Positions 8,390 through 32,366 of a stretch of 64,000 nucleotides of DNA are shown here, piece after piece; positions within the stretch are counted from its first letter, which is position 1, and the number at the start of each line of letters is the position of its first letter. The translations under genes and the position numbers were made by a program. The notes under the pieces were generated by a model. It was not told the DNA's origin. It searched no databases and was given only the letters and a program-made list of their open reading frames with translations. This stretch comes from Pseudovibrio sp. Alg231-02 (lineage in GTDB: Bacteria; Pseudomonadota; Alphaproteobacteria; Rhizobiales; Stappiaceae), in contig NZ_FREX01000002.1 of NCBI RefSeq assembly GCF_900143565.1, positions 496,001-560,000 of the forward strand, written 5' to 3'.

Positions 8390-8416
8390 GCTTTGTTTCA
8401 GATTTAGATTTTGGAG

Positions 8417-8446
8417 AACGCGCTCTTTTGGGGCGCGTTTTTCTTT
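8417..8446 (+). terminator. flagellin gene terminator
   Basis: Arms AACGCGC (8417-8423) and GCGCGTT (8433-8439) form a stem followed directly by a T-rich tract. It lies 28 bases after the flagellin stop codon. Confidence 0.85.
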
Positions 8447-8540
8447 TGTCTGGGTTGGGGCACCGTTTGCGTTGATATGTGCGTTGCTTTGCGTTTTTGT
8501 GGTGGTGGGCGCGTTGTTATGTGGTGGTCACTGGACAGAC

Positions 8541-8575
8541 AAAAAAAGAGCCATGCTGCGGGGGCGGCATAGCTC
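8541..8575 (-). terminator. terminator of FlaG-like gene
   Basis: Read on the reverse strand, GAGCTATGC (8575-8567) pairs with GCATGGCTC (8556-8548) and is followed by seven T residues (8547-8541). It lies 46 bases after the stop of the gene at 8621-9085. Confidence 0.85.
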
Positions 8576-8620
8576 AAGGGGGATAAGTCTGGTTTGCAGG
8601 GAGGATAAAGCCTGTGTGGC

Positions 8621-9085
8621 TTAGGCCTGCTTTGCTTGCGTTGGCTCGACCTGCTTTGCTTCGTAGATCGCAGGATCAATCTCTTTTGCCTCACCGCCCA
8701 GGCTGCGCTTTTCTTGTGCCTGAAGGACTTCATCCAGGAATGCACGAATGCGGCGAGCTGTCTTGGAGGGCAGTTCGTAGATGACGTCGCCTTCTGGCTC
8801 TTGCGTCATCGAATAGATGAGCTCATCTGACTCTTCATCATAAATGTAACCGCGCTCAATGCGGCTCTGGTCGTCCTTAGGTTTGCTAGGAATGACGCCG
8901 AGACGGGAGTCTGAGAGGTATGACTTTTCGGTGGCGGTTGAGTTATCCTCTGACTCAGAGGATGCAGTTACGGCCCGGGCGCCGGAGAGTTCGGTTTTGA
9001 CCTGTTCGGTCTCCGATTTTACCGGTGCTGCCTGTGTTGTCAGTGCCTGATGTAAGAGCGTTGGTCTTTGTGTGACTATTTCCAT
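8621..9085 (-). CDS. FlaG-like flagellar protein
   Basis: The 154-residue product begins MEIVTQRPTLLHQ. Its second half (ERGYIYDEESDELIYSM, then VIYELPSKTARRIRAFLDEV) resembles the FlaG domain pattern of a tyrosine- and acid-rich strand followed by an I-x-x-(I/L)-P turn and helix. FlaG proteins influence filament length in other bacteria; that role is only family-level knowledge. The first half is low-complexity Thr/Ser/Glu. The ATG at 9085 has a GGGGGA ribosome site six bases upstream and is preferred to an earlier TTG at 9115. Position next to the flagellin gene supports the call. Confidence 0.6.
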   Translation of the reverse strand: MEIVTQRPTLLHQALTTQAAPVKSETEQVKTELSGARAVTASSESEDNSTATEKSYLSDSRLGVIPSKPKDDQSRIERGYIYDEESDELIYSMTQEPEGDVIYELPSKTARRIRAFLDEVLQAQEKRSLGGEAKEIDPAIYEAKQVEPTQAKQA

Positions 9086-9277
9086 AATGTCCCCCACGTG
9101 TTCAATCTCGGACAACTTTATGGGGAATGTTCTTAAATAAAATTAATCTTAACGCTCGGAATTTATTAAATATTTAGAGAAATGCGACTGAAAACCGCCA
9201 AATACCCCTATTTCTCAGGGAGGCTCCGGGCGGTCTTCAGGCTATTTCGTTAATATGCACGCTTAATATCGCGCTGT

Positions 9278-9778
9278 TCAGAGGGTTTGGTTAACGGCGA
9301 TGCCCTGAGCGGATCTCTGGGGCGAACTCATCATGCCGTTTGCGCCGTAACCTCTTGTCTTCATTTGAGAACCAACGGCCTTGGCAACGGTCTCGATGAC
9401 GTTGTCTGTTACTGAACGTGCCGTAGAGACCACTTGCAGGTTGGTTTGAAGAATTGGCCGCAGATTACCGTGACGTTCGCGCATACGTTGAATGGACAGC
9501 GGAGCGAGGTTTCCAAGCGCGATGGCGTTTGCACTCGCCACACGGATGCCAGAGAGATATGACTCGATGGCTGCATGTTTTTTGGGGGCAACGGTTGGCA
9601 GCTCAGAAATTTGCCCCTCGCGTAGCAGCTCTGTTTCGGCCTCGATGATATCTACGAGGTTGTCCATTGCCGTCTCAAAATTTTCGCAGAAGACCTCGGC
9701 TTGCATCCGTGTCTGGATAGGTTCTTCTTCAAACGATACTGTACTTGGAACAGTTTCAGCGTCGTACTGGTTGGTCAT
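9278..9778 (-). CDS. flgN: FlgN/FlbY-type flagellar export chaperone
   Basis: The 166-residue helical protein starts MTNQYDAETVPS. Its core (DNLVDIIEAETELLREGQ, KKHAAIESYLSG) has the FlgN pattern of a long N-terminal helix with E-x-x-L-L-R followed by a lysine-marked second helix. FlgN keeps FlgK and FlgL unfolded and delivers them to the export gate. The tail (TRGYGANGMMSS, ending VNQTL) is typical of alphaproteobacterial members. The ATG at 9778 overlaps the stop of the preceding gene as ATGA, so translation is coupled. In Caulobacter the gene after flgI-cheL is flbY, the same arrangement. Confidence 0.75.
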   Translation of the reverse strand: MTNQYDAETVPSTVSFEEEPIQTRMQAEVFCENFETAMDNLVDIIEAETELLREGQISELPTVAPKKHAAIESYLSGIRVASANAIALGNLAPLSIQRMRERHGNLRPILQTNLQVVSTARSVTDNVIETVAKAVGSQMKTRGYGANGMMSSPQRSAQGIAVNQTL

Positions 9779-10104
9779 ACTGCGTTCTCTTGAAGTTGTA
9801 ATAATTGCGAGTGAACTGAAGCTGCAATACCAATGCCGCCAGATTGAGACATTGTGTTGGCGTACTCGTTGATCAGCATGGATTTCCACGCTTCTGAGCC
9901 TTCGCCGTTGCCATAGGTCCCGCCTTCATCAAGGCCGGTGAACATGTTTTGCAACATTTCATTGAGGAATACGGTTTCAAATTCCTTGGCCTTTTCCATC
10001 AGCGGATCTTTGGCGGCTGGTGGTTTGCCTGCCTGATTGGCGCCCGCGATCAGGTCTGCTGAGCTTGTCAGGGCAGGTGAGGGCAGTTGTGCTTGTTGGA
10101 GCAT
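9775..10104 (-). CDS. rod-binding protein (FlgJ N-terminal type / CheL)
   Basis: The 109-residue protein contains one rod-binding domain (KAKEFETVFLNEMLQNMF, EAWKSMLINEYANTMSQSGGIGIA). This corresponds to the N-terminal half of enterobacterial FlgJ, which caps the growing rod; the muramidase half is absent, as is usual in alphaproteobacteria, where the protein is also called CheL. Its ATG shares one base with the flgI stop (TAATG), and its own stop overlaps the flgN start, so the three genes form a tightly coupled operon. Confidence 0.9.
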   Translation of the reverse strand: MLQQAQLPSPALTSSADLIAGANQAGKPPAAKDPLMEKAKEFETVFLNEMLQNMFTGLDEGGTYGNGEGSEAWKSMLINEYANTMSQSGGIGIAASVHSQLLQLQENAV

Positions 10105-11222
10105 TAGAGGACCTCAATTTCTGCCTGAAGGGCGCCAGCGGCTTTGATAGCCTGTAAGATGGAGATCAGGTCTCTTGGGCCAATGCCCAGAGCGTTTAAT
10201 CCGTCAACAAGCTGCTGCAGTGTGATTGTTTCGTTGACGAGTGCCAGCTGGCTATTGTCTTCAGTCACCTGCACGTCTGTGCGAGGCACAGCAGCGGTTT
10301 GGCCCTGTGCGAATGGCAGCGGCTGAACCACCTCTGGTGATTCTGCGATGGTGACTGTGAGATTGCCCTGGGCGACTGCGACGGTGGAGACTTTTACCTG
10401 CTGACCCATGACGATGATGCCGGAGCTTTCGTCAATCACGATCTTGGCCGGTAAGTCAGGCTCTACGATCAGCTGCTCGATGTCAGTGATCAGATCGACA
10501 ATGTTGCCATCGAACTGTTTTGGAAGTGTGAGGCGAACGGTGGATGGGTCGAGTGGTTCTGCAGTTGGCAGGCCAATCAGCTCGTTAATTGCCACAGCAA
10601 TACGACGGGATGTGGTCAGGTCCGGATTGCGCAGGGCCAGACGAATGGTGCTGAGAGAAGAGAGTTTGAACTCAACCTCCCGCTCCACAAGAGCACCGTT
10701 TGGAATGCGGCCAGATGTTGGGACGCCGCGTACAACGGAAGCTGCGTCGCCCTGTGCTGCAAAGCCTGCGATTGCCACCGGGCCTTGCGCAATGGCGTAG
10801 GCTTCTCCGTCTGCGCCCATCAGTGGGGTCACCAGCAGTGTGCCGCCCTGAAGGTTCTTTGCATCGCCAAGTGCACTCACGGTTACGTCGATGCGGGTGC
10901 CTTGTGTTGAGAACGCTGGCAGGTTGGCAGTCACCATCACGGCGGCGGTGTTTTTTGTGTTCAGGTCTGCTTCGTTGGTGTTGACGCCAAGGCGTTCCAA
11001 CATTGCCTGCAAAGATTGCCGGGTGAATGGTGAGGCATTGAGAGAGTCACCAGTGCCCTGAAGGCCGACGACGAGACCGTAACCAATGAGCTGGTTGTCC
11101 CGGATGCCTTCAAAGTCAGTGATGTCTTTGATCCTTGAGGCTGCGTTTCCCTGAAGGGTCGCGCCCATAAGGACGATCAGTGCCGCTGCGGCGATTCTAC
11201 GTAAGTTTGCGAAAGAGCGCAT
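10104..11222 (-). CDS. flgI: flagellar P-ring protein FlgI
   Basis: FlgI forms the periplasmic P-ring bushing around the rod. The 372-residue precursor begins MRSFANLRRIAAAALIVLMG, a Sec signal peptide with likely cleavage near QGNA, followed by the mature family motif (RIKDITDFEGIRDNQLIGYGLVVGL). The C-terminal segment (LQQLVDGLNALGIGPRDLISILQAIK) is highly characteristic. The ATG at 11222 is preferred to one at 11249 because the predicted sigma-54 transcript begins near 11249. First gene of flgI-rod-binding-flgN. Confidence 0.95.
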   Translation of the reverse strand: MRSFANLRRIAAAALIVLMGATLQGNAASRIKDITDFEGIRDNQLIGYGLVVGLQGTGDSLNASPFTRQSLQAMLERLGVNTNEADLNTKNTAAVMVTANLPAFSTQGTRIDVTVSALGDAKNLQGGTLLVTPLMGADGEAYAIAQGPVAIAGFAAQGDAASVVRGVPTSGRIPNGALVEREVEFKLSSLSTIRLALRNPDLTTSRRIAVAINELIGLPTAEPLDPSTVRLTLPKQFDGNIVDLITDIEQLIVEPDLPAKIVIDESSGIIVMGQQVKVSTVAVAQGNLTVTIAESPEVVQPLPFAQGQTAAVPRTDVQVTEDNSQLALVNETITLQQLVDGLNALGIGPRDLISILQAIKAAGALQAEIEVL

Positions 11223-11259
11223 TGGTACCCGGCTGTTCAGTTCACACATGCCGGAAATA

Positions 11260-11275
11260 TGCGAATTTTGTGCCA
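11260..11275 (-). promoter_or_regulatory. sigma-54 promoter of flgI operon
   Basis: On the reverse strand TGGCAC (11275-11270) is followed by TCGCA (11264-11260), with exactly ten bases between GG and GC. The -24 element is perfect and the -12 differs from TTGCA at one base. Transcription would start near 11249, leaving about 27 bases before the flgI ATG. Confidence 0.72.
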
Positions 11276-11471
11276 GTTTCAGTGTTGCGTTTGCTAATTT
11301 TTAACCTGCTGAATTTACTGGGTATTTTTAGTAGAGGGTGGATAAAAGTTAAAGCACTGCAAATTTTAATGCGGCAATTGTTGCCTGCTTGGTAAAGTTT
11401 TACGTGATCAGCTCGGCAAATGCATTCGGGTTTAAGCTTTTGTCCAGTTCCATAGCTCTGAGGGTAAGGTC

Positions 11472-11909
11472 TTGCTTGTACGCAGCACTCCAGTTTCTGG
11501 TTTGAACTCCACGAGTAAAGTGGGTACGAAACGTCGCAAAGGTTCCGAAGGCGAGCAGGCGGGTGCGTTTGCTGTTGAGGAGGAGACCACCAGCGTTGCG
11601 CAGTCGCAGGCTGGTGTTCCAACACCGTCGCTGCAGGGTGTGGATTCTTTGCTGGCCCTTCAGCAGATGGAAGTTCAGGTCGATGACAAGCAGCGCGCTG
11701 TGCAGCATGGAAATAAACTTCTGGATCAACTAGATGCGCTGCGGATCGATTTGCTGCAAGGCAAAGTGCAGCCAGAGCGCCTTGAGCGGCTTGTTGGTAA
11801 CCTGTCCATGCAGGTCAAAAGTGGTAACCCCGGTCTCGACAGAGTGGTCGAAGATATTGAATTGCGTGCAAGAATCGAGCTCGCAAAGCTGGGTCATTAC
11901 GTAGAATAG
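11472..11909 (+). CDS. fliX: flagellar assembly regulator FliX
   Basis: FliX is an alphaproteobacterial protein that, in Caulobacter, couples basal-body completion to sigma-54 dependent transcription through FlbD. The 145-residue product has a variable basic/Gln-rich N-terminus and a conserved helical C-terminal half (VDSLLALQQMEVQVDDKQRAVQHG, LLDQLDALRIDLLQGKV, then ARIELAKLGHYVE). The start is a TTG at 11472 with GAGGG seven bases upstream; no ATG gives a full-length product. It faces away from flgI and precedes dksA. Confidence 0.85.
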   Translation: MLVRSTPVSGLNSTSKVGTKRRKGSEGEQAGAFAVEEETTSVAQSQAGVPTPSLQGVDSLLALQQMEVQVDDKQRAVQHGNKLLDQLDALRIDLLQGKVQPERLERLVGNLSMQVKSGNPGLDRVVEDIELRARIELAKLGHYVE

Positions 11910-16399: not shown

Positions 16400-16897
16400 A
16401 TGGCAGATGCGGAACTGCAAAATACTGAGGATGACGGTAAGTCCGGCAAACGCAAGATCGTTATCGGAGCGATTGCTGGCGTCTTGCTGTTAACCCTTGG
16501 TGTGGGCGGTGCATATGTAATGGACTGGATCAATCTGGGCGACACAGCCACCGTCAAGCGGGCGGATGGCACTGTTGAGCAGATCCAAACCAAGCCTGTC
16601 GTTTTTTACGATCTGCCAGAAATGACGGTGAACCTTTCTACCCAAGGCCGCACGACCTACCTGAAAGTCCGCATCGCTCTTGAAGTTGAGAGCGACAGCA
16701 TGGTTTCTCAGGTGGAGCCTTATCTTCCGCGCATTCTTGATGCTTTCCAGATTTATCTGCGTGAGTTGCGCCCTGCTGATCTGGAAGGATCTGCTGGACT
16801 GTTCCGCTTGAAGGAGCAACTTCTGCGCCGCATCAACTCTGCAATCTATCCAGCCAAGGTTGAAGGGGTTCTCTTTAAAGAGATCCTGATCCAGTAG
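16400..16897 (+). CDS. fliL: flagellar basal body-associated protein FliL
   Basis: FliL is a single-span inner-membrane protein that surrounds the stator and supports torque generation. Of 165 residues, 1-18 are cytoplasmic, 20-41 form the membrane helix, and the periplasmic domain follows (VVFYDLPEMTVNLSTQGRTTYLKVRIALEV). The C-terminal FKEILIQ motif is typical. It is the first gene of fliL-fliM-DUF6468-motE, the usual alphaproteobacterial order. The fliM start follows after 11 bases. Confidence 0.95.
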   Translation: MADAELQNTEDDGKSGKRKIVIGAIAGVLLLTLGVGGAYVMDWINLGDTATVKRADGTVEQIQTKPVVFYDLPEMTVNLSTQGRTTYLKVRIALEVESDSMVSQVEPYLPRILDAFQIYLRELRPADLEGSAGLFRLKEQLLRRINSAIYPAKVEGVLFKEILIQ

Positions 16898-16908: not shown

Positions 16909-18132
16909 ATGTCAGATACCGATACTCTCCCTGAAAATATGGATGATGCCTGGGACACCGCTCTTTCTGAAGCTGAGGGTGGTGACAGCGATGAGGATCT
17001 TGCCGCGGCGTGGGGCGCTGCGCTTCAGGAGCAAGGCGTAGAAGGCGGTGAAGAGGCCGCAGCTCAATGGGCTGCGATGATCGACGACAGCGAGCCGGAT
17101 GTAGAGAGCGCGTCTCGTGGTGCTGACCGTATTCTGAATCAGGAAGAGATCGACAACCTTCTGGGCTTTACGCTGGATGGGTCTCTGGCTGGTGATGAAG
17201 GCGGTATTCGTGCGCTGATCAATTCGGCAATGGTGTCTTATGAGCGCCTGCCGATGCTGGAGATCGTGTTTGACCGTCTCGTACGTCTCACAACGACATC
17301 TCTGCGTAATTTCACATCGGACAATGTTGAAGTCTCCTTGGACTCCATGACCAATGTGCGTTTTGGTGACTACCTGAACTCAATTCCACTTCCAGCGATC
17401 CTTGGTGTGTTCAAGGCTAAGGAATGGGATGGCTTTGGACTTGTTACCGTTGAGAGCTCTCTGATCTATTCCATCATTGATGTGTTGCTTGGTGGTGGCC
17501 GTGGGTCTTCGCCTACACGCGTTGAAGGGCGGCCATATACCACGATTGAGAGCAATCTGGTGCGCCGGATGATCGAGATTATTCTGCTGGATGCTGAGCA
17601 GGCTTTTGGCCCGCTGTCTCCGGTGAGCTTCCCGCTTGAGCGCCTTGAGACGAATCCACGCTTTGCCGCGATTTCTCGTCCTGCGAATGCTGCCATCATG
17701 GTTGAGCTGCGCATCGATATGGAAGATCGCGGCGGTAAAGTTGAGATTGTGCTGCCTTACGCGACCCTTGAACCAATCCGTGAACTGCTTCTGCAGATGT
17801 TCATGGGTGAGAAGTTCGGGCGTGATCCTATTTGGGAAGAGCACCTTGCCACTGAGGTTTATTCCTCAGAAGTGCAGGTTGATGCTGTCCTTTATGAAAA
17901 CACCATCCCGCTCCAGCGGGTGTTGAATCTGGAAGTTGGTCAAACCTTGCTGTTTGATACCGGCCCGCGTGATCCTGTTCAGGTGAAATGCGGGGGAGTG
18001 GCTTTGACAGAGGGCCTTATGGGCCATGTTGATGACCGAATTTCCATCGAAATTTCAAAGAAGCTGAAGCAACCGAAAATGACGCTCGCCGCTTTTGAAA
18101 AGTCCCTGCAAAGCGAACTGGAGACAAACTAG
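16909..18132 (+). CDS. fliM: flagellar motor switch protein FliM
   Basis: FliM is the C-ring protein that binds CheY and sets rotation. The 407-residue product has the canonical EIDNLLGF motif at 80-87 rather than at the extreme N-terminus. Before it lies an acidic extension with three imperfect Trp repeats (W15, W35, W54, each in a context like AAWGAAL). The middle domain (YERLPMLEIVFDRLVRL) and C-terminal SpoA-like domain are normal. Whether the extension or the EIDNLL motif contacts CheY here is unknown. The stop is directly followed by the next ATG. Confidence 0.95.
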   Translation: MSDTDTLPENMDDAWDTALSEAEGGDSDEDLAAAWGAALQEQGVEGGEEAAAQWAAMIDDSEPDVESASRGADRILNQEEIDNLLGFTLDGSLAGDEGGIRALINSAMVSYERLPMLEIVFDRLVRLTTTSLRNFTSDNVEVSLDSMTNVRFGDYLNSIPLPAILGVFKAKEWDGFGLVTVESSLIYSIIDVLLGGGRGSSPTRVEGRPYTTIESNLVRRMIEIILLDAEQAFGPLSPVSFPLERLETNPRFAAISRPANAAIMVELRIDMEDRGGKVEIVLPYATLEPIRELLLQMFMGEKFGRDPIWEEHLATEVYSSEVQVDAVLYENTIPLQRVLNLEVGQTLLFDTGPRDPVQVKCGGVALTEGLMGHVDDRISIEISKKLKQPKMTLAAFEKSLQSELETN

Positions 18133-18699
18133 ATGTCCCTAGGTCTTATTATTGAATGCATCGTTGCGGTTCTTCTTGTGATTACCATTGGGTATTGCTG
18201 GACACTTAACCGTCGCTTAAGTCGTCTCCGCTCTGACGAAGAGTCCTTGCGTGCAACTATTTCTGAGCTGATTACAGCGACTGAAATTGCAGAGCGTGCG
18301 ATCATGGGTCTCAAGTCGACCTGCGGAAATGCAGACCGTACTCTTGGTGTGCGTCTGGGCGAAGCTGAGGCGGTTTCCCGCAAACTGACCAATCAGTTGG
18401 GTGCCGGTGAAGATGTGCTGGACCGCATTGGCGGTGTTGCAGATCGTGCACTTGCTGATCGTGACACCCGTGTGGCCGCGCCAGCAGCTCCGGTATCCCG
18501 CACTTATGAAACCGCAGCGGAGGGACTTGCTGCCGGGATCATTGCGGAACAGGAAACGATGCATCCGGCTGAAACACGTAGCGCTCCAGCCCCTAAAGCT
18601 GCGACCCGCTCCGTGACCCGTGACATTCGTGAAGCTGCAAATGAATCAGCTGCGCGCCTTGAGCGCTTCCGTAGACAAGCGCAGGACCGCGTAGCATGA
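18133..18699 (+). CDS. DUF6468 membrane protein in flagellar operon
   Basis: The 188-residue protein starts MSLGLIIECIVAVLLVITIGYCW, a membrane helix at about 4-24, then a basic NRRLSRLRSDEESLRATI segment and a helical region of DUF6468 type. The C-terminal half is Ala/Pro/Glu-rich with a final basic helix (ARLERFRRQAQDRVA). The biochemical function is unknown; genes of this family sit between fliM and motE in many alphaproteobacteria. It starts immediately after the fliM stop and overlaps the motE start by four bases, so it is co-translated with motor genes. Confidence 0.75.
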   Translation: MSLGLIIECIVAVLLVITIGYCWTLNRRLSRLRSDEESLRATISELITATEIAERAIMGLKSTCGNADRTLGVRLGEAEAVSRKLTNQLGAGEDVLDRIGGVADRALADRDTRVAAPAAPVSRTYETAAEGLAAGIIAEQETMHPAETRSAPAPKAATRSVTRDIREAANESAARLERFRRQAQDRVA

Positions 18700-19394
18700 A
18701 ACTAAGGCTCCTTCCGATTGTCGTATTTGCTGGTAGCGCCCTTCTGGTTTTGAAGCTGCTTGGTTTGTTTCTGGGTGATACTTATCCAATTGGTGCTGTT
18801 CGGGTTGCTGATGCGCAGCAGTCGGAAGTGGCGAAGGCTGAGGAAGAGGCACCTGCTACTCCAAACGTTCTTCCCAATCCATCTGGCGCACGGAAGATCC
18901 AGGTCGCTCAAAATACAAGTGGTGTGAAAGAAAGTGGTGTTCCAACGAACTCCGTTTCTGAACTTGCCGTTCTCAATAGTCTTGGCAATCGCCGCGATGT
19001 GCTGAACCAGCGTGAAAGTGATCTGGAGCTCCGCGAGCAGGTTCTTGCAGCTGCTGAGGCGCGTTTTAATAAGCGTTTTCAGGAACTTAAGGCGCTTGAA
19101 GCGAAGATCAATTCTGAAGTTGAGCGCAAAGAAAAACAGGCTGCAGAAGAGATCCTGGATCTGGTGAAGATCTATGAAAGCATGAAGGCCAAGAATGCAG
19201 CACGGATCTTCAACCGTCTGGACCTGGATATCATGTTGAAGGTGGTGAAGGAGATGCAGCCGCGGAAGATGGCGGATGTGCTTTCTGAGATGGATCCGGA
19301 AATGGCAGAGCAGCTGACAATTGCACTGGCAGCAGGTGAGAGCCGCAATGTGAAGACGACTTCCACAATTCTTCCGAAGATTCAGGGGAATTAA
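18696..19394 (+). CDS. motE: MotE-family periplasmic motility chaperone
   Basis: In Sinorhizobium MotE is a periplasmic chaperone that stabilises MotC, a stator-associated protein. The 232-residue product has a signal or anchor segment at 7-27, a Pro/Ser linker, a long coiled coil (about 95-165, LRESDLELREQ-like heptads and KEKQAAEEILDLVKIYESM) and a C-terminal MgtE-N-like domain (MKAKNAARIFNRLDLDIMLKVVKEM, KMADVLSEMDPEMAEQLT). It overlaps the DUF6468 gene by ATGA and precedes the giant TPR gene by 105 bases. Confidence 0.85.
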   Translation: MKLRLLPIVVFAGSALLVLKLLGLFLGDTYPIGAVRVADAQQSEVAKAEEEAPATPNVLPNPSGARKIQVAQNTSGVKESGVPTNSVSELAVLNSLGNRRDVLNQRESDLELREQVLAAAEARFNKRFQELKALEAKINSEVERKEKQAAEEILDLVKIYESMKAKNAARIFNRLDLDIMLKVVKEMQPRKMADVLSEMDPEMAEQLTIALAAGESRNVKTTSTILPKIQGN

Positions 19395-19499
19395 CTGAGC
19401 AAATTGGCGGTTTTTCGCTCTTGGCTCAGGAGTCTGTAAGCTTGCGTTAATAGCCAATTGTTACAGATACCTAATTAATTTTAGGAGTAAGAATCGGGC

Positions 19500-22400
19500 A
19501 TGGGCGATTTTGGGGGCGACCTTAAAGATAAGCAGAAGCGTTCCGTTCTGCGCGCCACTTTACCTTTTGTGCCGCGCCGTGCATTGCATGGAGCACGCAT
19601 TGTGAGGGTAAAGGGTAAGGCTTGGCTTGTCTCCTTCATGCTCGCCACAACTGCCTTAGGGGGCAGTGTTTTAAGTGCCTGGGCCGAGCCAGCTTCTGCT
19701 GTTCTTGAGGTTGAAGACACCGGCAACTTTGCCCGCATGGTAATCACGTTCCCGGATCGCTCGTTGTTGCCACCCTATGAAGCTTCCATTTCCACCAGTG
19801 TCCTGCGCATCTCCTTTCCTGATGGCATTGCAGCGGATGTTGATGATGTGCCGGAAGCTTTGATGGACTACATCTCCATTGCCCGTGCTGATCCTGATGG
19901 TGCTGCGCTGCGTTTTGCATTGCGGCAGCCGGTTAACATCAACAGTATGGAAGCTGGCGAGAAGCTCTTTATCGACCTGCTTCCTGCCAATTACGAGGGC
20001 CGGCCTCCGTCCTTGCCTCAGGATGTGGTTGATGAGCTCGCCCGACGGGCTGCGGAGGCGCTTGAGCGTATTCGTGTGTTGGAAGAAGCGAATGCGCTTG
20101 AAGATCAGGAGATCAAGGTCAAGCTGCGGATTGGTACGCATCCAACATTTACGCGCCTGATCTTCGATTGGAATGTGAAGGTTGGCAGTGCGTTTGAGCG
20201 CAACGGAAACAATATTCGCGTCAAGTTTGATCAGGCTGCTGATCTGGATTTGTCTCAGTTTAAAGCAAGTCTACCGGGTACTGTGCTGGATGTTGGCTCG
20301 CAAACCCGTGACAATGATCTGATCTTCAACATGATTGTTGATCCGAGTGTTGATGTGCGATCTTTTCAGGAGGGGAAGCAGCTTATTGTTGATGTCACGC
20401 CTGAAGACATCGGCCAGTTGGATCCTCGGGTTTCTGAAGTTCGCGATGAGCTTTTTGGCGATGGAGATGTGCCACAAGGCGCTTCGAATGTCATAAACAC
20501 GCTTGGTAATAAAGATGCGGCACCCGCTGCAATTGCACCTGCCGTGTCTGCTGCTGTTGATCAGGCTCGGGTTGCTGCTCCGGGCAGTCTGTTTCCGACG
20601 CCTCAACCTGTTCAGACCGCTCAAACCAGTGTGAATGATGGCCTTGATTTTCCGCAGATGCCGTTGCCAGTTGCGAAGCCGGAGTTGGAACGCATTGGTG
20701 ATCCGGTTGACCGGCCTGCTCCAGCTGACATTCCTCAATCCAAGCCTTCGGAAGAAGACTTGCAGGCTGAGGTTGGCAAAGAGCCAGAGCCCGTTGAAGC
20801 TGTTGTTGTAAAGGCGCAACCTGTTCGCCGTGTGAAACCTGAGCCTGCGCCTGAAACTGATGTGGCACCTGTTGCTGAGATCATTCCGGAAACCGATCTC
20901 ATTGCCGAGGTTGTGAATGCAGGTGGGCAGACCTCGATACCAGTGACGCTTGCATCTGAACAAGGCGCGGGCGCTGATGGTGTTCCGGCTGCTGCAGCGG
21001 TTGTTGCTGATGCAGACGAGGAGTTGCCGATTGCGCGTCGTGCTTCTGCTGAAACAATTATTCAGGAAGAGAACGACGCTGCAGCGCGTGTTGTTGGCGT
21101 TGAGACGTATCGCATTGGTGATACCGTTCGTCTGGTGTTTCCGTTTGAGAACGAGGTTGGTGCTGCTGTTTTCCGCCGTGATGAAAAAGTCTGGGCGGTG
21201 TTCGACAGTGAGGAGCATCTGGACGGGCGCGGTATTCCGGCCGTTTTGAGTGATCTTGCGCGCAAGGTGGAGCTTGATGAAGTTGACGGTGCGCAGGTGC
21301 TGCGGTTTGACCTGAAGCGGACCACGTTGATCTCCATCGAGTATCAGGATGACGCCTGGGCGATTACTTTGGGGCCGTCGATCTCGACAAAGACTGATCC
21401 GGTTGATGTTGAGCGGAATGTGCAGGGTGATGGCTCGAATGTTCTGCGTTTGCCGTTTGGTGCAAGTGGACGATTGCATGTGCTAACTGACAAAAGCGTT
21501 GGCGACCGGATTTATGTGGTCAGTGGTCCTGCGCCTGTTCGTGGCATTTTGAAATCGCACCGGTTCCCTCAGGTTCAGATTCTGCGCAGCTCTCAGGGAC
21601 TTGCGGTGGTTCCGAGTGCAGATGGTATTGATGTTGAGTTATCGGGCGAAGATCTTGTGATCTCCAGACCTGACGGATTGAAGATTTCGAATCGTGGTCT
21701 TTCCAAAGGTACGACGATTGGCGCTCATGTTAAGGACCCGACACAGCCGGGCCTGATTGAATTTGCGCAGCTGGACCAGCAAAAGCCTGAGGATTACATG
21801 CAAGGCCTTCGGGCGCATGAGGATGCGATTGCGAAGGCTGATCCGGAGCAGTTGAGTGGTCCACGTCTGGATATGGCGCGGTTTTTTCTCTCCAGTGGGT
21901 TTGCGCAGGAAGCTATTGGCACCTTGCGCATCATGGAAGAAGATGATCCTCTCATCGAGAAAGATGCCACCTTCAACGTAATGATGGGTGCTGCGCAGAT
22001 GTTAGCGTCGCGACCGGGTGAAGCGCTTGAGTATCTTGCTGCTCCCGAACTTGCCAGCAGCCCTGATGCTGCGGTGTGGCGGACCTTTGCGCATTCCTCT
22101 TTAGGGGACTGGCAGGGCGCTCATGCAAATCTTGGGCGCGGGCTGGCTGTTATGGCCAATTATCCGGTGATGTTGCAGGTGTATTTCAACCTTGCGGCTG
22201 CCAAGACGCATTTGGCTCTTGGCAACTATGGTCGGGCGCTGGGGGCTTTGTCGCAGATTGAGCCTTCTGATGTGAATGAAGAGCAGGCCATTCAGTATGA
22301 CTTGCTGCGCGGACGGATTGCCGATGCTTCTGGCCGCTCACAGGAAGCGCTGGATGTGTATGATCTGGTGGTACGCTCCAGTGATGGGCCGGAGGCTGCA

Positions 22401-23504
22401 GAAGCCAAGTTCCTGAGTGTGAAGCTGCGGTACCGGGATGGTTTGATTGATGCGGATGAAGCTCTCTCCGAACTGGAGGGACTTGCTGCGTCGTGGCGCG
22501 GTGATGAAACTGAGCTGAAGACACTGCGGCTGATGGCTCAGCTGCATGCGCAGGAAGGCAATTACCGCCGGGCCTTTGAGGCGATGTCTCAGGCTGTGCA
22601 ATCTGATGCAGGCGCGGAAATCACTTCGAACATTCAGCAGGAAATGGGATCTGTCTTTGCAACCCTGTTCCTTGAAGGCAGGGCGCAAGCTCTGGAGCCT
22701 GTGAAGGCGCTTGCGCTGTTTTATGATTTCCGTGAGTTGGTGCCTGCTGGTCGTCAAGGTGATGAGATGGCGCGGATGCTGGCCAGTCGTCTGATTGATA
22801 TGGACCTGCTGGATCAGGCTGCTTCTGTTTTGCGACATCAGATCGACAAGCGTCTGAAAGGTGCTGCGCGGGCGCAGATCGCTGCTGATCTGGCTGTTGT
22901 TTATCTGCTGAACCGGAAGCCTGAAGAAGCGCTGCGGGTGCTTTCGCAAACGCGTCAGGGGCAGTTGCCGGCTGCTTTGCAGCGTCAGCGAAATATTGTT
23001 GAGGCGCGTGCTTTGAGTGAGAGCGGGCGTCCTGATCTTGCTCTGGAGCTGGTGCGTAACATGTCTGGCTCTGACGTGGATCGTTTGCGGGCTGATACGC
23101 TTTGGTCGGCACGATCCTGGCGGAAGGCTGGTGAGCAGCTGGAACAGATGAACGGCAGTCGCTGGTCTGATGAAGTGCCGCTTGCTGACCATGAGCGTGT
23201 TGATGTCATCCGCGCGGCGATTGCCTATACGCTGGCTGAAGATAGCTTAGGTCTTGAGCGGCTGCGGCAGAAATACTCGCAGAAAATGAGCGAGTCTCCT
23301 CAGGCTGAAACATTTGAGATTGTGACGCGGCCTATTGATGACCGCGGCGTTGAGTTCCTGAATGTCGCCAAATCGATTGGTGGCGGGGATAGTCTGGTGT
23401 CCTTCCTTGAGGAGTACAGACGTCAATATCTCTCAGCAACGCCGATTATTCCGACTGAGGAAGCTTTCCTCTATCCCGAAGATGCCAAAGAGGGAGCTGC
23501 TTAA
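19500..23504 (+). CDS. giant secreted TPR protein in flagellar cluster
   Basis: A 1334-residue protein of unknown function. A hydrophobic segment at 41-61 ending SAWA looks like a signal peptide. Two regions with AMIN-like beta patterns follow (about 65-300 and 540-640), separated by a Pro/Val/Glu-rich linker at about 330-510. From about 750 to the end there are many helical pairs of TPR character (EALEYLAAPELA, GRALGALSQIEPSDVNEEQAIQYDLLRGRI, QEALDVYDLV). A GTG at 19602 with GGAG upstream would give a much more typical signal peptide and may be the true start. Position after motE suggests it could be the MotC-like client, but no direct similarity was seen. Confidence 0.7.
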   Translation: MGDFGGDLKDKQKRSVLRATLPFVPRRALHGARIVRVKGKAWLVSFMLATTALGGSVLSAWAEPASAVLEVEDTGNFARMVITFPDRSLLPPYEASISTSVLRISFPDGIAADVDDVPEALMDYISIARADPDGAALRFALRQPVNINSMEAGEKLFIDLLPANYEGRPPSLPQDVVDELARRAAEALERIRVLEEANALEDQEIKVKLRIGTHPTFTRLIFDWNVKVGSAFERNGNNIRVKFDQAADLDLSQFKASLPGTVLDVGSQTRDNDLIFNMIVDPSVDVRSFQEGKQLIVDVTPEDIGQLDPRVSEVRDELFGDGDVPQGASNVINTLGNKDAAPAAIAPAVSAAVDQARVAAPGSLFPTPQPVQTAQTSVNDGLDFPQMPLPVAKPELERIGDPVDRPAPADIPQSKPSEEDLQAEVGKEPEPVEAVVVKAQPVRRVKPEPAPETDVAPVAEIIPETDLIAEVVNAGGQTSIPVTLASEQGAGADGVPAAAAVVADADEELPIARRASAETIIQEENDAAARVVGVETYRIGDTVRLVFPFENEVGAAVFRRDEKVWAVFDSEEHLDGRGIPAVLSDLARKVELDEVDGAQVLRFDLKRTTLISIEYQDDAWAITLGPSISTKTDPVDVERNVQGDGSNVLRLPFGASGRLHVLTDKSVGDRIYVVSGPAPVRGILKSHRFPQVQILRSSQGLAVVPSADGIDVELSGEDLVISRPDGLKISNRGLSKGTTIGAHVKDPTQPGLIEFAQLDQQKPEDYMQGLRAHEDAIAKADPEQLSGPRLDMARFFLSSGFAQEAIGTLRIMEEDDPLIEKDATFNVMMGAAQMLASRPGEALEYLAAPELASSPDAAVWRTFAHSSLGDWQGAHANLGRGLAVMANYPVMLQVYFNLAAAKTHLALGNYGRALGALSQIEPSDVNEEQAIQYDLLRGRIADASGRSQEALDVYDLVVRSSDGPEAAEAKFLSVKLRYRDGLIDADEALSELEGLAASWRGDETELKTLRLMAQLHAQEGNYRRAFEAMSQAVQSDAGAEITSNIQQEMGSVFATLFLEGRAQALEPVKALALFYDFRELVPAGRQGDEMARMLASRLIDMDLLDQAASVLRHQIDKRLKGAARAQIAADLAVVYLLNRKPEEALRVLSQTRQGQLPAALQRQRNIVEARALSESGRPDLALELVRNMSGSDVDRLRADTLWSARSWRKAGEQLEQMNGSRWSDEVPLADHERVDVIRAAIAYTLAEDSLGLERLRQKYSQKMSESPQAETFEIVTRPIDDRGVEFLNVAKSIGGGDSLVSFLEEYRRQYLSATPIIPTEEAFLYPEDAKEGAA

Positions 23505-23588: not shown

Positions 23589-24350
23589 CTAACCGCCGAA
23601 ACTTCGGACCAGGCTGCCTGCGATCAGTTGCCAGCCGTCTACGAGCACAAAGAAGATGAGCTTGAATGGCAGCGAGATCACGATTGGTGGCAGCATCATC
23701 ATACCCATGGACATCAGGACTGATGCAATCACGAGATCGATGATGAGGAACGGCAGGTAGAGCAGGAAGCCGATTTCAAAGGCGCGGCGCAACTCGCTGA
23801 TCATGAAGGCTGGCACGAGAACGCGCAGGCTCAGCTCTTCAGGAGTTTCCGGGGCAGGGGCCTTTGCGAGTTCCTGAAAGAGCAGGAGATCAGTTTCGCG
23901 TACTTGTTGACGCATGAACTCGTGAAAGGGTTCGGATGCCCGATTGAATGCTTCTTGCGGGTCGATGGTGCCTTCAATCATGGGCTTTGCGCCCAGATCC
24001 CACGCCGTTTCAAAGGCTGGGGCCATGACGAAGGCTGTCAGGAACATGGCAAGGGATAGCATGACCGCGTTTGGTGGTGCAGTCTGAAGCCCGATTGCAG
24101 AGCGGAGCAGTGAAAGAACCACAACGATACGTGTGAAGCTTGTCACCATAATCAGGATGCTCGGCGCCAGTGAGAGCACCGTGAGCAGCATGACCAACTG
24201 AACAGCACGCTCTGTTACCGAGTTGCCTTCTCCGCCTCCAAAATCAATTGAAATGCTTTGAGCAGCAGCAGGACCGAACCAGAAAAGCAAGAGAGCGAAA
24301 CCCAAAAGCCCCAATCGGCCTTTGTTTTCGCTCAGCTTTGCTTTCACCAT
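23589..24350 (-). CDS. fliP: flagellar export gate protein FliP
   Basis: FliP forms, with FliQ and FliR, the core of the flagellar type III export gate. The precursor begins MVKAKLSENKGRLGLLGFALLLFW, a cleavable signal peptide ending PAAA, as is normal for FliP. Family blocks include MVTSFTRIVVVLSLLRSAIG, NRASEPFHEFMRQQVRE, LVPAFMISELRRAFEIGF and VISLPFKLIFFVLVDGW. The ATG at 24350 gives the most normal signal peptide; an in-frame ATG at 24386 overlaps the fliO end and cannot be excluded. It is cotranscribed with fliO. Confidence 0.95.
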   Translation of the reverse strand: MVKAKLSENKGRLGLLGFALLLFWFGPAAAQSISIDFGGGEGNSVTERAVQLVMLLTVLSLAPSILIMVTSFTRIVVVLSLLRSAIGLQTAPPNAVMLSLAMFLTAFVMAPAFETAWDLGAKPMIEGTIDPQEAFNRASEPFHEFMRQQVRETDLLLFQELAKAPAPETPEELSLRVLVPAFMISELRRAFEIGFLLYLPFLIIDLVIASVLMSMGMMMLPPIVISLPFKLIFFVLVDGWQLIAGSLVRSFGG

Positions 24351-24360
24351 TCCTGCTAAA

Positions 24361-25815
24361 TTATTTTGTGTTGGCCTCAATGTCATCTAGCAGGTCTGCC
24401 ATTTCCTTTGCGATGCCATCTACAGCTTCGCTGGGATCATCTTTAGGTGATGTTTTCTCTGCTTTTTTAGGAGCAGTTTCGGAAGCTACCGGCTTTTCTG
24501 CCTTCTCTTCCTGCTTTGCTGGTTTCTCAGCTTCAGGTGCCTTTTCCGGCTTAGCTGGCTTCTTGGCTTTTGCTTTGCTGGCGGCTTTTTCCTTTGCCTT
24601 GGCTGGCTCAGGCTTCTTCTCTGCAGCAGGAGTTGGCGCGGCCTCTGCTTTTTCAGCTGGAATAGCTGCTGGTGCTGCGTCAGCTTTTGTCTCTTCTTGC
24701 TTCAGCGCGGGCTTTTCAGCGGCAGCTTCAGGTTTTTCGGCAGCAGCCTCAGGTTTTGGCGCGTCTTTCTTTTCGTCCTGCACTTTGGCTGGCGTCTCAG
24801 TTACCCGAGGGCGCATGAAAGCACTTGCTGCATTTGCTGCCGGACCGTTCAAAGGCGGTTTCATTGCCGCTTTTGGAATAGGCTTGGATGCTGCCGGTGC
24901 TTCTGGCTGTGGCGTTTCCGGTTTAGGTGCAGGCTTTTCTGCAGTTTTCTCTGGTACTGGCGCGATCGGCTCTGCCTGCTTCACAGCTGGGCTTGGCTGT
25001 GACGGGCTGAGTGAGCGTGGCGAGGCCGGACGCGCTGGAGACGGCCGTGCTGTTATTGGGCGTGCCGCTACTTTTTGAACACCACGTGCGCCGCCAATGG
25101 TTGGCGTCTGCAAAGCAGCTGGTCTACCTGCTGGCGTCGCTGCTGATGCTGGTGCTGCTGCTGGGGCAGCTGGTCTTACTGGGCGCGCAGATGCCATGTG
25201 CCCTGCTGCTGCAGCTTGTGGGATTGGCGCTGCCTGAGGCACAGTAGCAATTTTTTCTTTGATTGCTGCTGGCGCCGGGGCAGGTGCTGTCGCGAGAGAT
25301 TGTACAGGTGCCTTTACTTCAGGCTGCTGCTTTGGAGCAGGGCGACTTGCAGGTGCAGGTTTGACCTCTGCCGTTACTGGTGCGGTGTCTTCACCCCAGT
25401 TCAGGCGTGCTGTTGGTTCTTCTGAAGAGGGCGTTTGTTCTGGTGTTGCCGGTGTGGTGCCGACTTGCCCATTGCCTGTAAACATCTGTCCGCGAGGCGG
25501 GGCCGAGACCGGCATGCCACGAATGATGCCTTGCTCAACAACAACGTCATTAGCGCCCCCAATCATGATGAGGTGCTCAACATTGTCTCGGCGGACAAGC
25601 AGTAATCTGCGCCGCGCATCGATATCGGTCGCATCCATGATTGCAAGACGAGGTTGGCGACTTCGCGACCCCTTGTAACTGGTTCTTGCTAAGCGCTTCA
25701 AAAGCGGAATGCAGACCGCGATGAGAACCGCGATAATCAACATCGCCAGTACGACAGCAAGAAGCTGTGCGCTTCCCTGCGACATACCAGTGGTTTGGGC
25801 CAGCCAGTCAGGCAT
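24361..25815 (-). CDS. fliO: FliO-type flagellar export protein with long low-complexity tail
   Basis: FliO assists assembly of the FliP ring. The first 110 residues are FliO-like: a membrane helix at about 17-40 (AVVLAMLIIAVLIAVCIPLLKRL) and the beta domain (LAIMDATDIDARRRLLLVRRDNVEHLIMIGG). The remaining 370 residues are a disordered Ala/Pro/Lys/Glu tail with short repeats such as PEAAAEK. The tail is far longer than in enteric FliO (about 120 residues) and is probably cytoplasmic. The gene lies directly upstream of fliP, which fixes its identity. Confidence 0.85.
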   Translation of the reverse strand: MPDWLAQTTGMSQGSAQLLAVVLAMLIIAVLIAVCIPLLKRLARTSYKGSRSRQPRLAIMDATDIDARRRLLLVRRDNVEHLIMIGGANDVVVEQGIIRGMPVSAPPRGQMFTGNGQVGTTPATPEQTPSSEEPTARLNWGEDTAPVTAEVKPAPASRPAPKQQPEVKAPVQSLATAPAPAPAAIKEKIATVPQAAPIPQAAAAGHMASARPVRPAAPAAAPASAATPAGRPAALQTPTIGGARGVQKVAARPITARPSPARPASPRSLSPSQPSPAVKQAEPIAPVPEKTAEKPAPKPETPQPEAPAASKPIPKAAMKPPLNGPAANAASAFMRPRVTETPAKVQDEKKDAPKPEAAAEKPEAAAEKPALKQEETKADAAPAAIPAEKAEAAPTPAAEKKPEPAKAKEKAASKAKAKKPAKPEKAPEAEKPAKQEEKAEKPVASETAPKKAEKTSPKDDPSEAVDGIAKEMADLLDDIEANTK

Positions 25816-29706: not shown

Positions 29707-29801
29707 CGGCATTTACGTGTCGGAGTGTCGGCTTTGGAGCGGACTATTCTCATGGCGCGATGGAGTCAAATCGTCTGCGGGGCAGCCGTAGAGAGGGTAA
29801 G

Positions 29802-32366
29802 ATGACGAAGACCGAAGCGCGGCGACCTGAGCCGGTGATAGACAGGACAGACAAGGGCGGCAGCCTTGGGGCCTTGATGCTGCTTGCATTAGGCCTTGTC
29901 GCAGCGACAGCCGCCTTTGCGTTGATGCGCAAGGAACAGGCAGAGCCCTATATTTTGGGGCTCCTGGGTGTTCTGGCCGTTGTCGGGGTGTTCTCTTTAT
30001 TCGCCATGGCCATTGGCCTTTTACGGTTCATCTCCAAAACCCATCGCAATCCACTTGCTGAATCCTTCATGAATTCGCTGGATGATGGTGTTCTGCTGGC
30101 TGATCATAATGGCCGTATCATCTATGCCAACCAGTCCTATGCTGAGTTGACGGGTGCGCGTGGACCTGCGGATGTGCGCACGGTGGAGCGGGTGTTTTCG
30201 TCAGACCCGGATGCTGCTGATGCCATATTCCGGCTGTCGCAAGCGGTGCGGAGTGGACGATATGCAACAGAAGAAGTGCGTCTGCCGAATGCGGTTGGTG
30301 AGGTTGCCAGCGGAGCGCGTTGGTATCGCATCAGTGTTCGGCCACTGGATCAGGATGCAGCGGTTGGCGTTGAAAGCGGCATTACCATCTGGCAGGTATC
30401 CGATATCACCCGTGACCGAACCGAACAGGAAAACTCCTTCCAGGAGCTGCAGAGAGTTATCAACTTCCTTGACCATGCGCCCTGCGGGTTCTTTTCCTCT
30501 GACAGCACTGGCAAGCTGGTCTACCTGAATGCGACACTTGCTGACTGGCTTGGCTATGATCTGACCCAATTCATCTCCGGCGAACTGTCTTTGAAAGACA
30601 TCGTGCGCGGAGAAGGGGCGGCTCTTGTTGAGGCGCTGCTGGGCTCTGAGGGTGAAGTTAAGACCGAGAGCTTTGATATTGATCTGGTGACCCGCAATGG
30701 CACCGGTCTGCCTGTGCGCCTTGTACACCGTGTGCCGTTTGGAGCTGATGGGCTTGCTGGCGACAGCCGTACGCTTGTGATCAATCGCTCTGCAGGCAAT
30801 GATGATGAAGAAGCGCTGCGGGCTGCAGAAGTGCGCTTCTCACGCTTCTTCAACAACACACCTGTCGCGATTGCCTCCATTGACAAGAACGGTCTTGTTG
30901 AACGTACCAACGGCCCGTTCATGCGTTTGTTCGAGCAAGGTGAGGGCCTTGGCAAAGATGTGAAGCTCACCGAGTTTGTCGTTGAAACTGATCGCGTTGC
31001 TTTGCAAAGTGCGCTGGAAGAAGCGGCGCTGGGCAAGAGTGAGATTGCGCCGCTTGATGTCTCGCTTAAAGGCAATGGTGATCCGCGCTCCGCGACCTTC
31101 TACGTTTCTGCAGTGCAGGACAGTCAGGCCGGTGAAGATGCTGCGGTGATTTATGTTCTGGAAACCACGCAGCAGCGTGCTCTTGAAGCGCAGTTTGCCC
31201 AGAGCCAGAAGATGCAGGCGATTGGTCAGCTGGCTGGCGGTGTTGCGCATGACTTCAACAACGTTCTGACCGCGATTATCGGGTTCTCTGATCTGTTGCT
31301 GGCAAGTCACCGTCCAACAGATCCGGCGTTCCAGGACATCATGAACATCAAGCAGAACGCGAACAGGGCCGCCGGTCTTGTGCGTCAGTTGCTCGCGTTC
31401 TCCCGCCGTCAGACCTTGCGCCCGCAGGAGCTCGCACTTGCTGATGTGCTTGCTGATGTTTCTATTCTTCTGGACCGTCTGCTTGGCGAGAAGATTGAGC
31501 TGAAGTTGGTACATGGCCGGGAGCTATGGCCTGTGATGGCGGATGTGAACCAGCTTGAGCAGGTGATTGTCAACCTTGCTGTGAACGCCCGTGATGCGAT
31601 GGAAGGTGGAGGCGAAGTCTCCATTCGTACGCTCAACGTGGAAGAGGCTGTTTCCAAAACCTATGAGAATACGCGCGGTATGCCACCGGGTGAGTATGTG
31701 CTCATTGAAGTTGCCGATAATGGCCATGGCATGTCGCAGGACGTGATGGACAAGATCTTTGAGCCGTTCTTCTCGACCAAAGATGTTGGTAAAGGAACGG
31801 GTCTTGGGCTTTCCACTGTTTATGGCATTGTGAAGCAGACTGGTGGCTATGTGTTCTGCACCAGTGAAGTTGGTGTGGGTACCACGTTCCGCATCTTCCT
31901 GCCGCGTCACATCTCCACTGAGAAGGAAGAGGTGGTTGAGGTTAAGCCGGAACAGGAAGTAACAGAGGCTGACCTGACTGGTTCTGCAACCATTCTTCTT
32001 GTTGAGGATGAGGAGGCTGTGCGAGCCTTTGCTGCGCGTGCATTAGGTGGCCGCGGTTATGAGGTTTATGAAGCAGGTTCCGGCACTGAGGCATTGGAAG
32101 TGATGGAAGAAACAGGCGGGGCGATTGACCTTGTGGTTTCTGACGTGGTGATGCCGGAAATGGATGGGCCAAGCCTGCTTATTGAGCTGCGCAAGACGCG
32201 TCCAGACCTGAAGATCATCTTTATCTCTGGCTATGCTGAGGATGCGTTTGAGAAGAACTTACCTGCTGAGGAGAGTTTCACCTTCTTGCCGAAGCCGTTC
32301 ACACTCAAGCAGCTTGCAACAACCGTGAAAGAAACTCTGGAAGCTAAGACGCAAGAACGCGCCTAA
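29802..32366 (+). CDS. cckA: cell-cycle hybrid histidine kinase CckA
   Basis: CckA is the bifunctional kinase/phosphatase that, through ChpT, controls phosphorylation of CtrA. The 854-residue product has two membrane helices (about 25-42 and 51-77), PAS-like domains (about 90-200, 218-330 and 345-455), a HisKA domain with H483 in [20 protein letters not shown], an HATPase domain ([20 protein letters not shown]), and a C-terminal receiver with D781 in [12 protein letters not shown]. The ATG at 29802 follows GAGAGGG; an earlier ATG at 29760 has no ribosome site. It appears to be the last gene of the flgB-flhB transcript and ends at a palindromic element. Confidence 0.93.

Follow-up and report, generated by a model that had tools for sequence, protein, structure and literature searches.

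In the alphaproteobacterium Cereibacter sphaeroides, the operon fliL2-pflI-motE-motA2-motK is reported to encode MotE and MotK, two periplasmic proteins that are essential for flagellar rotation and that bind each other and MotB2 (PMC10954123). The same report describes MotK as AMIN-like at its N-terminus and TPR-like over the rest, and it proposes CC_2058 of Caulobacter as a distant MotK homolog. Deletion of the CC_2058 gene (fssB) in C. crescentus is described as giving cells that have filaments and are non-motile, like a motB mutant (PMC7885107). Other published accounts describe MotE as homologous to FlgY, the E-ring protein, treat MotC and MotK as PflA-like proteins, and read the pair CC_2059/CC_2058 as FlgY/PflA (PMC13023049, PMC11870540). 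The model published for scaffolds of this class has an E-ring and spokes near the inner membrane; in Campylobacter, PflA is described as building 17 spokes that position PflB and the stators (PMC12222027). Here we analyze a 64,000-nucleotide stretch of Pseudovibrio sp. Alg231-02 (contig NZ_FREX01000002.1, positions 496,001 to 560,000; the window), in which a gene for a 1334-residue protein, called here the large protein, stands at the end of the fliL-fliM operon. The contig that carries the window measures 847 kb, and the genome, of 5.96 Mb, is rated 99.95% complete.

We conclude that the large protein is very probably a motor scaffold of the alphaproteobacterial MotK/FssB type, a working counterpart of Campylobacter PflA. 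The evidence from this genome and its relatives consists of the operon, the export signal, the domain folds, the conservation of the family, its neighborhood and its co-occurrence across whole genomes. The idea of a motor scaffold, put forward in a first-pass annotation of the window, is largely right in outline and is already in print for the relatives. The large protein is longer than its published alphaproteobacterial counterparts and has three AMIN domains. It is ordinary in kind; what we add is how large the family is, the gene order in Azospirillum, and a possible division of flagella into two kits that goes with the length of MotB. The operon and its flank are laid out as follows:

16400-16897, + strand: fliL, first gene of the operon, encoding a stator-associated membrane protein (Pfam FliL, 3.9e-21).
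16909-18132, + strand: fliM, encoding the C-ring switch protein (Pfam FliM, 3.2e-63).
18133-18699, + strand: DUF6468 gene, 188 residues (Pfam DUF6468, 1.7e-23), with zero gap to fliM.
18696-19394, + strand: motE of the FlgY/E-ring type, 232 residues (MgtE_N, 2.6e-6), with a 4-base ATGA overlap with the DUF6468 gene.
19500-23504, + strand: large scaffold gene, 1334 residues, starting 105 bases after motE.
23589-25815, - strand: fliP and fliO (Pfam), flanking the operon and outside it.

These coordinates, together with the Pfam matches, bear out the zero-gap and ATGA coupling from fliL to motE that the first-pass annotation had described. It had also called the genes after fliM genes of unknown function, which does not hold: all three have published counterparts, in PflI, MotE and MotK/FssB. 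MgtE_N is the domain that marks MotE/FlgY, and the window MotE has it at its C-terminus (28.3 bits, against a Pfam cut-off of 25.9), together with the hydrophobic N-terminal stretch and the place in a flagellar operon that are typical of MotE/FlgY. Its cleavage site is not clear, it has no cysteine, and it also gives a weak match to the NCBIfam model of the FlbB collar (2.4e-4). The DUF6468 protein has a hydrophobic helix at its N-terminus, probably followed by a coiled coil. It lies where PflI, a protein of flagellar positioning, is expected, between fliL/fliM and motE, and by family and position it is probably PflI; the published operon has the order fliL-pflI-motE (PMC10954123), and the DUF6468 family is also present in our Caulobacter control genome. 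The FliO match is below the Pfam cut-off.

The large protein is built from the following parts:

19500-19685, + strand: signal peptide with a long n-region (hydrophobic residues 41-53, then AWA-EP; cleavage probably near residue 62).
19692-19994, + strand: AMIN-like domain 1, residues about 65-165 (AlphaFold model; AMIN2 profile match, probability 96.4%).
20109-20405, + strand: AMIN-like domain 2, residues about 204-302, matched by structure.
20490-21083, + strand: linker rich in Ala, Pro, Val and Glu, residues 331-528, seen from composition.
21090-21374, + strand: AMIN-like domain 3, residues about 531-625 (profile matches to AMIN2, 96.2%, and AMIN1, 76.7%; beta model).
21411-21665, + strand: further beta domain, residues about 638-722 (model; profile unlike the AMIN repeats).
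21786-23432, + strand: TPR-type alpha-solenoid, residues 763-1311 (model; 32 helices of at least 4 residues).

A signal peptide, AMIN-like beta regions and a long TPR array had all been proposed from the sequence, and all three are borne out, the AMIN-like regions and the TPR-type solenoid by structure models. By a simple hydropathy test, a hydrophobic stretch and an AxA-like site are present in 74 of 77 orthologs (two of the 79 ortholog open reading frames, or ORFs, were shorter than 1150 residues and left out). The large protein has no cysteine, and therefore no lipoprotein site. For the structure work, alignments from 76 of the 79 ORFs (longer than 1150 residues, without L087) were thinned to 43 sequences, and residues 331-499 lie outside both models. 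The AlphaFold model of residues 61-330 has a predicted local distance difference test (pLDDT) score of 91, and domain 2 matches AmiC, PilQ and Campylobacter PflA in structure comparisons. The linker is probably disordered; its modeled end (residues 500-529) has a pLDDT of about 35. When the model of residues 500-1334 was searched with Foldseek, the lowest E-value fell to 9hmf_K, which is part of a C. jejuni motor scaffold structure and, judged by the length of this chain, is PflA. Pfam gave weak TPR matches only. In a profile search of PDB sequences, the C-terminal part of the large protein retrieved TPR proteins along with a small number of others, the N-terminal part gave one chance-level match, and PflA was absent from the results. 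Many invariant positions of the family alignment lie at residues of about 1049-1131.

This architecture can be set beside the three best described systems. MotK resembles the large protein in being exported, in having an AMIN-like N-terminus and a TPR-like remainder, and in lying near MotE in an operon of the fliL-pflI-motE type (PMC10954123), but it is reported to have 652 residues and one AMIN-like domain, compared to 1334 residues and three, and in Cereibacter motA lies between motE and motK, whereas in the window genome it lies elsewhere. CC_2058/FssB has a MotE-type neighbor (CC_2059), a signal peptide, an AMIN-like N-terminus (residues 36-132) and a TPR region (PMC7885107, PMC10954123, PMC13023049), in a shorter gene (published range 2,000 to 3,000 bp, versus 4,005 in the window). 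The large protein thus shares with the MotK/FssB family both the neighborhood and an architecture that runs from a signal peptide through AMIN-like domains to C-terminal TPRs. With PflA it shares an N-terminal AMIN-like sandwich, and its probably flexible linker and TPR-type solenoid stand where PflA has a flexible linker and a TPR superhelix; PflA is described as acting with an E-ring protein and stators, and as having one sandwich and 16-17 TPRs, its rim being formed by the partner PflB (PMC12222027, PMC11870540).

In the arrangement that we favor, the large protein is exported to the periplasm, where MotE, tethered at the inner membrane, would encircle the MS-ring as an E-ring. Through its C-terminal TPR solenoid the large protein would dock on MotE and extend outward as a spoke, and the AMIN domains, two of them beyond the long flexible linker, may bind peptidoglycan, rim partners or both. 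MotE and the large protein together would then keep the stators of this motor, for which the short MotA/MotB pair is the probable candidate, at the correct radius and promote their opening, so that the flagellum rotates. Within this scheme we infer the spoke geometry, the binding to peptidoglycan, the choice of stator and the polar flagellum of the window cluster.

Several observations weigh against such a scaffold role. The requirement for rotation is carried over from the relatives MotK and FssB and the binding to MotE and MotB from MotK, and the assignment of a MotA/MotB pair to the window motor is likewise indirect. The proposed kinship to MotK/CC_2058 comes from position, architecture and published papers rather than from a comparison of the sequences themselves, and BLAST is reported to have found no similarity between MotK and Caulobacter proteins (PMC10954123). 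By sequence, no AMIN match to the large protein was found in Pfam at E ≤ 1. The superposition on 9hmf_K is poor (TM-scores 0.19-0.20, root-mean-square deviation 40 Å), and the 50 matches from a finer alignment of the 500-1334 model, all TPR and similar solenoids, do not include PflA, an absence that does not exclude it. Finally, five genomes of the window's order have the large-protein family and no FliP match; one of them is G112, a 7.5-Mb genome rated 100% complete.

The family is widespread: 15 of 16 genomes in the genus have it, as do 89 of 150 in the order and, by a 26-sequence profile, 212 of 387 in the class. Our reading ties this class-wide family to the E-ring/spoke part of the motor. 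The family alignment (A1) drew on 29 of 30 loci from the order (without L017), in which rows L023 and L028 are ORFs in the wrong frame; a second alignment (A2) leaves out L023, L028 and L010. The top match among named genomes is in Pseudovibrio ascidiaceicola (98% identity over all 1334 residues), and Stappia, Roseibium, Cohaesibacter, Pleomorphomonas and Bradyrhizobium are represented among the best 80 named loci, of which 79 are usable (no ORF matched in L119). Order and strand of fliL-fliM-DUF6468-motE-large gene are kept in 73 of the 79, which argues that the operon coupling is more than chance, and fliP also lies downstream of the large gene in most of these named relatives. Among the six deviating loci, L114, L127 and L132 begin close upstream, one differs in order by best hits, and in L116 and L123 the large gene alone is recognized. 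ORF starts in the named loci were taken as the first possible start codon, which makes gaps rough: a spacing of 56-251 bases separates motE from the large gene in 71 of the 77 loci with both recognized, and the 4-base overlap of DUF6468 and motE recurs in 62 of 76. Within the order, DUF6468 at the family cut-off is found in 88 of the 89 genomes with the large gene and in none of the other 61; the single exception is a genome that is 61% complete. Two loci (L057:8010-10394 and G535:C2:175933-179852) have the large gene shortened or in two frames, by assembly error or a real break. The genus member G534 has a MotC match but none to the window protein, which may reflect a natural loss.

The stator link comes from plasmids. 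A plasmid search with the large protein gave 17 records, 11 of them from Azospirillum and none from Rhodobacterales by organism name (and so no MotK). In A. lipoferum p5 and a plasmid of A. brasilense, shorter homologs (831 and 794 residues) stand directly before motA and motB, so the gene order on two plasmids links the family with stator genes. The p5 homolog has 25% identity to the large protein (2e-22), and on p5 fliM is followed by genes for a DUF6468 protein and a MotE-like protein (31% identity, 4e-14); at this locus (L184) the MotE-like and MotK-like genes are at 1566-2336 and 8125-10620. A review lists the lateral cluster of A. brasilense without motC and motE. On an Erythrobacter plasmid, a 548-residue form that, as annotated, aligns with the TPR part only is encoded near fliL-fliM-DUF6468-MotE. 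As these shorter plasmid homologs show, the number of AMIN domains varies, whereas the TPR part seems to be what stays constant. Where the plasmid records name the family at all, it is just as 'hypothetical protein' or 'tetratricopeptide repeat protein'.

Searches of the source genome for MgtE_N and MotB revealed a second flagellar cluster, at C8:460-495 kb (L046 and L047). By Pfam it contains FlgI, FlgH, FliL, FliM, FliN, FliG, FliF, FlhA-type, FlhB, FliI-type, hook protein, flagellin, MotA, MotB and FliK genes, and FliP was found by a separate genome search. A second motE lies between flgI and flgH (C8:481647-482198; MgtE_N 25.7 bits as protein and 26.5 in the genome search, cut-off 25.9), and its product has one cysteine outside the signal-like N-terminus, compared to none in the window MotE. 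The order flgI-motE-flgH-fliL-fliP is the one reported for motE in Rhizobiaceae (PMC10954123). Elsewhere in the cluster, a long motB (587 residues) is followed by a gene for a 413-residue protein and then by fliK:

C8:472526-473767: MotC-family protein, 413 residues, with a signal-like N-terminus (NF009441, 1.2e-74; NF009442, 5e-55; both below the strict cut-offs of the models).

A MotC match is present in all 16 genomes of the genus; four other sampled members of the window's taxonomic family have one FliP each and no MotC match. The second cluster also encodes, between fliM and fliN, a 216-residue protein with an N-terminal hydrophobic stretch (L047:9139-9789, that is, C8:489139-489789) and a very weak DUF6468 match (E = 0.024), perhaps the PflI counterpart of the second motor.

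The first-pass annotation had stated that MotC is absent from the window, which is true but gives a wrong picture of the genome, and that the large protein takes the position of MotC, which fails, as the genome has MotC with its own MotE in the second cluster. Could the large protein nevertheless be a functional MotC stand-in that regulates motor speed, with MotE as its chaperone? MotC is likewise described as an exported, TPR-rich partner of MotE (PMC13023049), and a MotC profile (its alignment built from 12 of 21 sequences) matches the window family weakly (159 columns, probability 23.7%, E = 8.5e-4). The large protein itself has no match at E ≤ 1 to the MotC (PRK12798) models of NCBIfam, and the MotC of the second cluster has 413 residues rather than 1334 and directly follows a long MotB. 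We consider the stand-in unlikely: here MotC lies in a different cluster and beside a different MotE, both families also coexist in four more genomes of the order, and in Cereibacter it is MotE that is reported to depend on MotK rather than the other way round (PMC10954123). The presence elsewhere in the genome of a true motC accompanied by a motE had been named as grounds for giving up the motor role, and this is literally what we found, but it does not overturn that role because the two motE genes belong to separate flagellar clusters: the window MotE and the large protein belong to one, and the second MotE and MotC to the other.

FimV-type proteins carry LysM and FimV domains, and neither was matched by the large protein at E ≤ 1 in Pfam or NCBIfam. 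A FimV-like polar landmark or positioning factor, organizing the pole rather than the motor, would suit the adjoining PflI-type gene, PflI being implicated in flagellar positioning (PMC10954123), but loss of FssB is reported to keep filaments and stop motility (PMC7885107) and the Azospirillum homologs adjoin motAB, so we regard this role as very unlikely. That the large protein is part of a distinct structure at the outer membrane, a disk or cage that would make a new ring, we likewise regard as very unlikely. The large size and three AMIN domains could form a lattice, and PilQ, matched in the AMIN domains, belongs to an outer-membrane machine. However, the large protein offers no cysteine for a lipoprotein anchor, no barrel appears in the two models (which omit residues 331-499; no search for outer-membrane partners was made), and published work places the family at the E-ring and stators (PMC10954123, PMC12222027, PMC11870540). 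The scaffold claim of the first-pass annotation is supported for a periplasmic motor scaffold beside MotE, in view of the AMIN and TPR domains, the PflA fold matches and the MotK and FssB phenotypes, while nothing was found for an outer-membrane site or a new cage.

The window family and MotC are nearly mutually exclusive across genomes. Among the 150 genomes of the order, 84 have the window family only, 22 have MotC only, five have both and 39 have neither; FliP is present in three of these 39, and all five double genomes have at least two FliP matches. For the 109 FliP-positive genomes the counts are 79, 22, 5 and 3, respectively (Fisher P = 2.6e-15, relatedness uncorrected). FliP counts take in type III secretion relatives, and of the 27 genomes of the order with a MotC match, 26 score under the strict cut-off of the model. 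A third FliP-family gene (G000:C24:230978-231568, 217 residues) perhaps belongs to type III secretion and not to a flagellum. MotB length, measured on open frames as computed, follows the same division: 81 of 84 MotB frames in window-family-only genomes are shorter than 340 residues (median 293) and three are longer, with no MotB match in four of the 84 genomes, and 22 of 23 frames in MotC-only genomes have at least 342 residues (median 452), the remaining one being a 61-residue piece. Each double genome has one short MotB (282-298 residues) and one long (421-596). The short motA-motB pair of the source genome stands alone at C16:179863-181518.

We tentatively suggest, as a possibility somewhat short of even, that alphaproteobacterial flagella are built from either kit A (DUF6468/PflI, MotE, an AMIN-TPR spoke of the MotK type and a short MotB) or kit B (MotE, MotC and a long MotB), and that Pseudovibrio, in which 15 of 16 genomes have both families, and a few others carry both kits. 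DUF6468 speaks against a clean split: it is found in 94 genomes at E ≤ 0.001, compared to 88 over the family cut-off, and five of the six extra weak cases are MotC-only (G023, G028, G045, G107 and G138), so kit B may have a diverged DUF6468 relative too. Kit A drives polar flagella in Caulobacter and Cereibacter, but it need not mean polar, because the clusters on the Azospirillum plasmids may encode lateral flagella. In Sinorhizobium and Agrobacterium, motors with MotC are reported to be regulated in speed and not to reverse, and the MotC-bearing lateral flagella of Bradyrhizobium, whose cluster has motC and motE, to turn in one direction (PMC8429497). A literature search, mostly at the level of listings, found no published account of a cell with both MotC and a MotK-type protein, and a paper on a Rhodobacterales flagellum contains none of six names sought in it. 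Together, the two-kit split and MotB length provide a simple, testable rule for pairing scaffold with stator. If the two-kit reading is true, the two MotE rings of a genome with both kits must each choose their own spoke and stator, and E-ring partner specificity becomes testable in a single cell.

Two other features of the window stand apart from the operon. At 11242-11625, a 127-residue frame without a Pfam match overlaps the start of flgI. Directly after flhB, at 29760-32366, is a gene for an 868-residue PAS-histidine kinase-receiver protein, whose layout resembles that of CckA.

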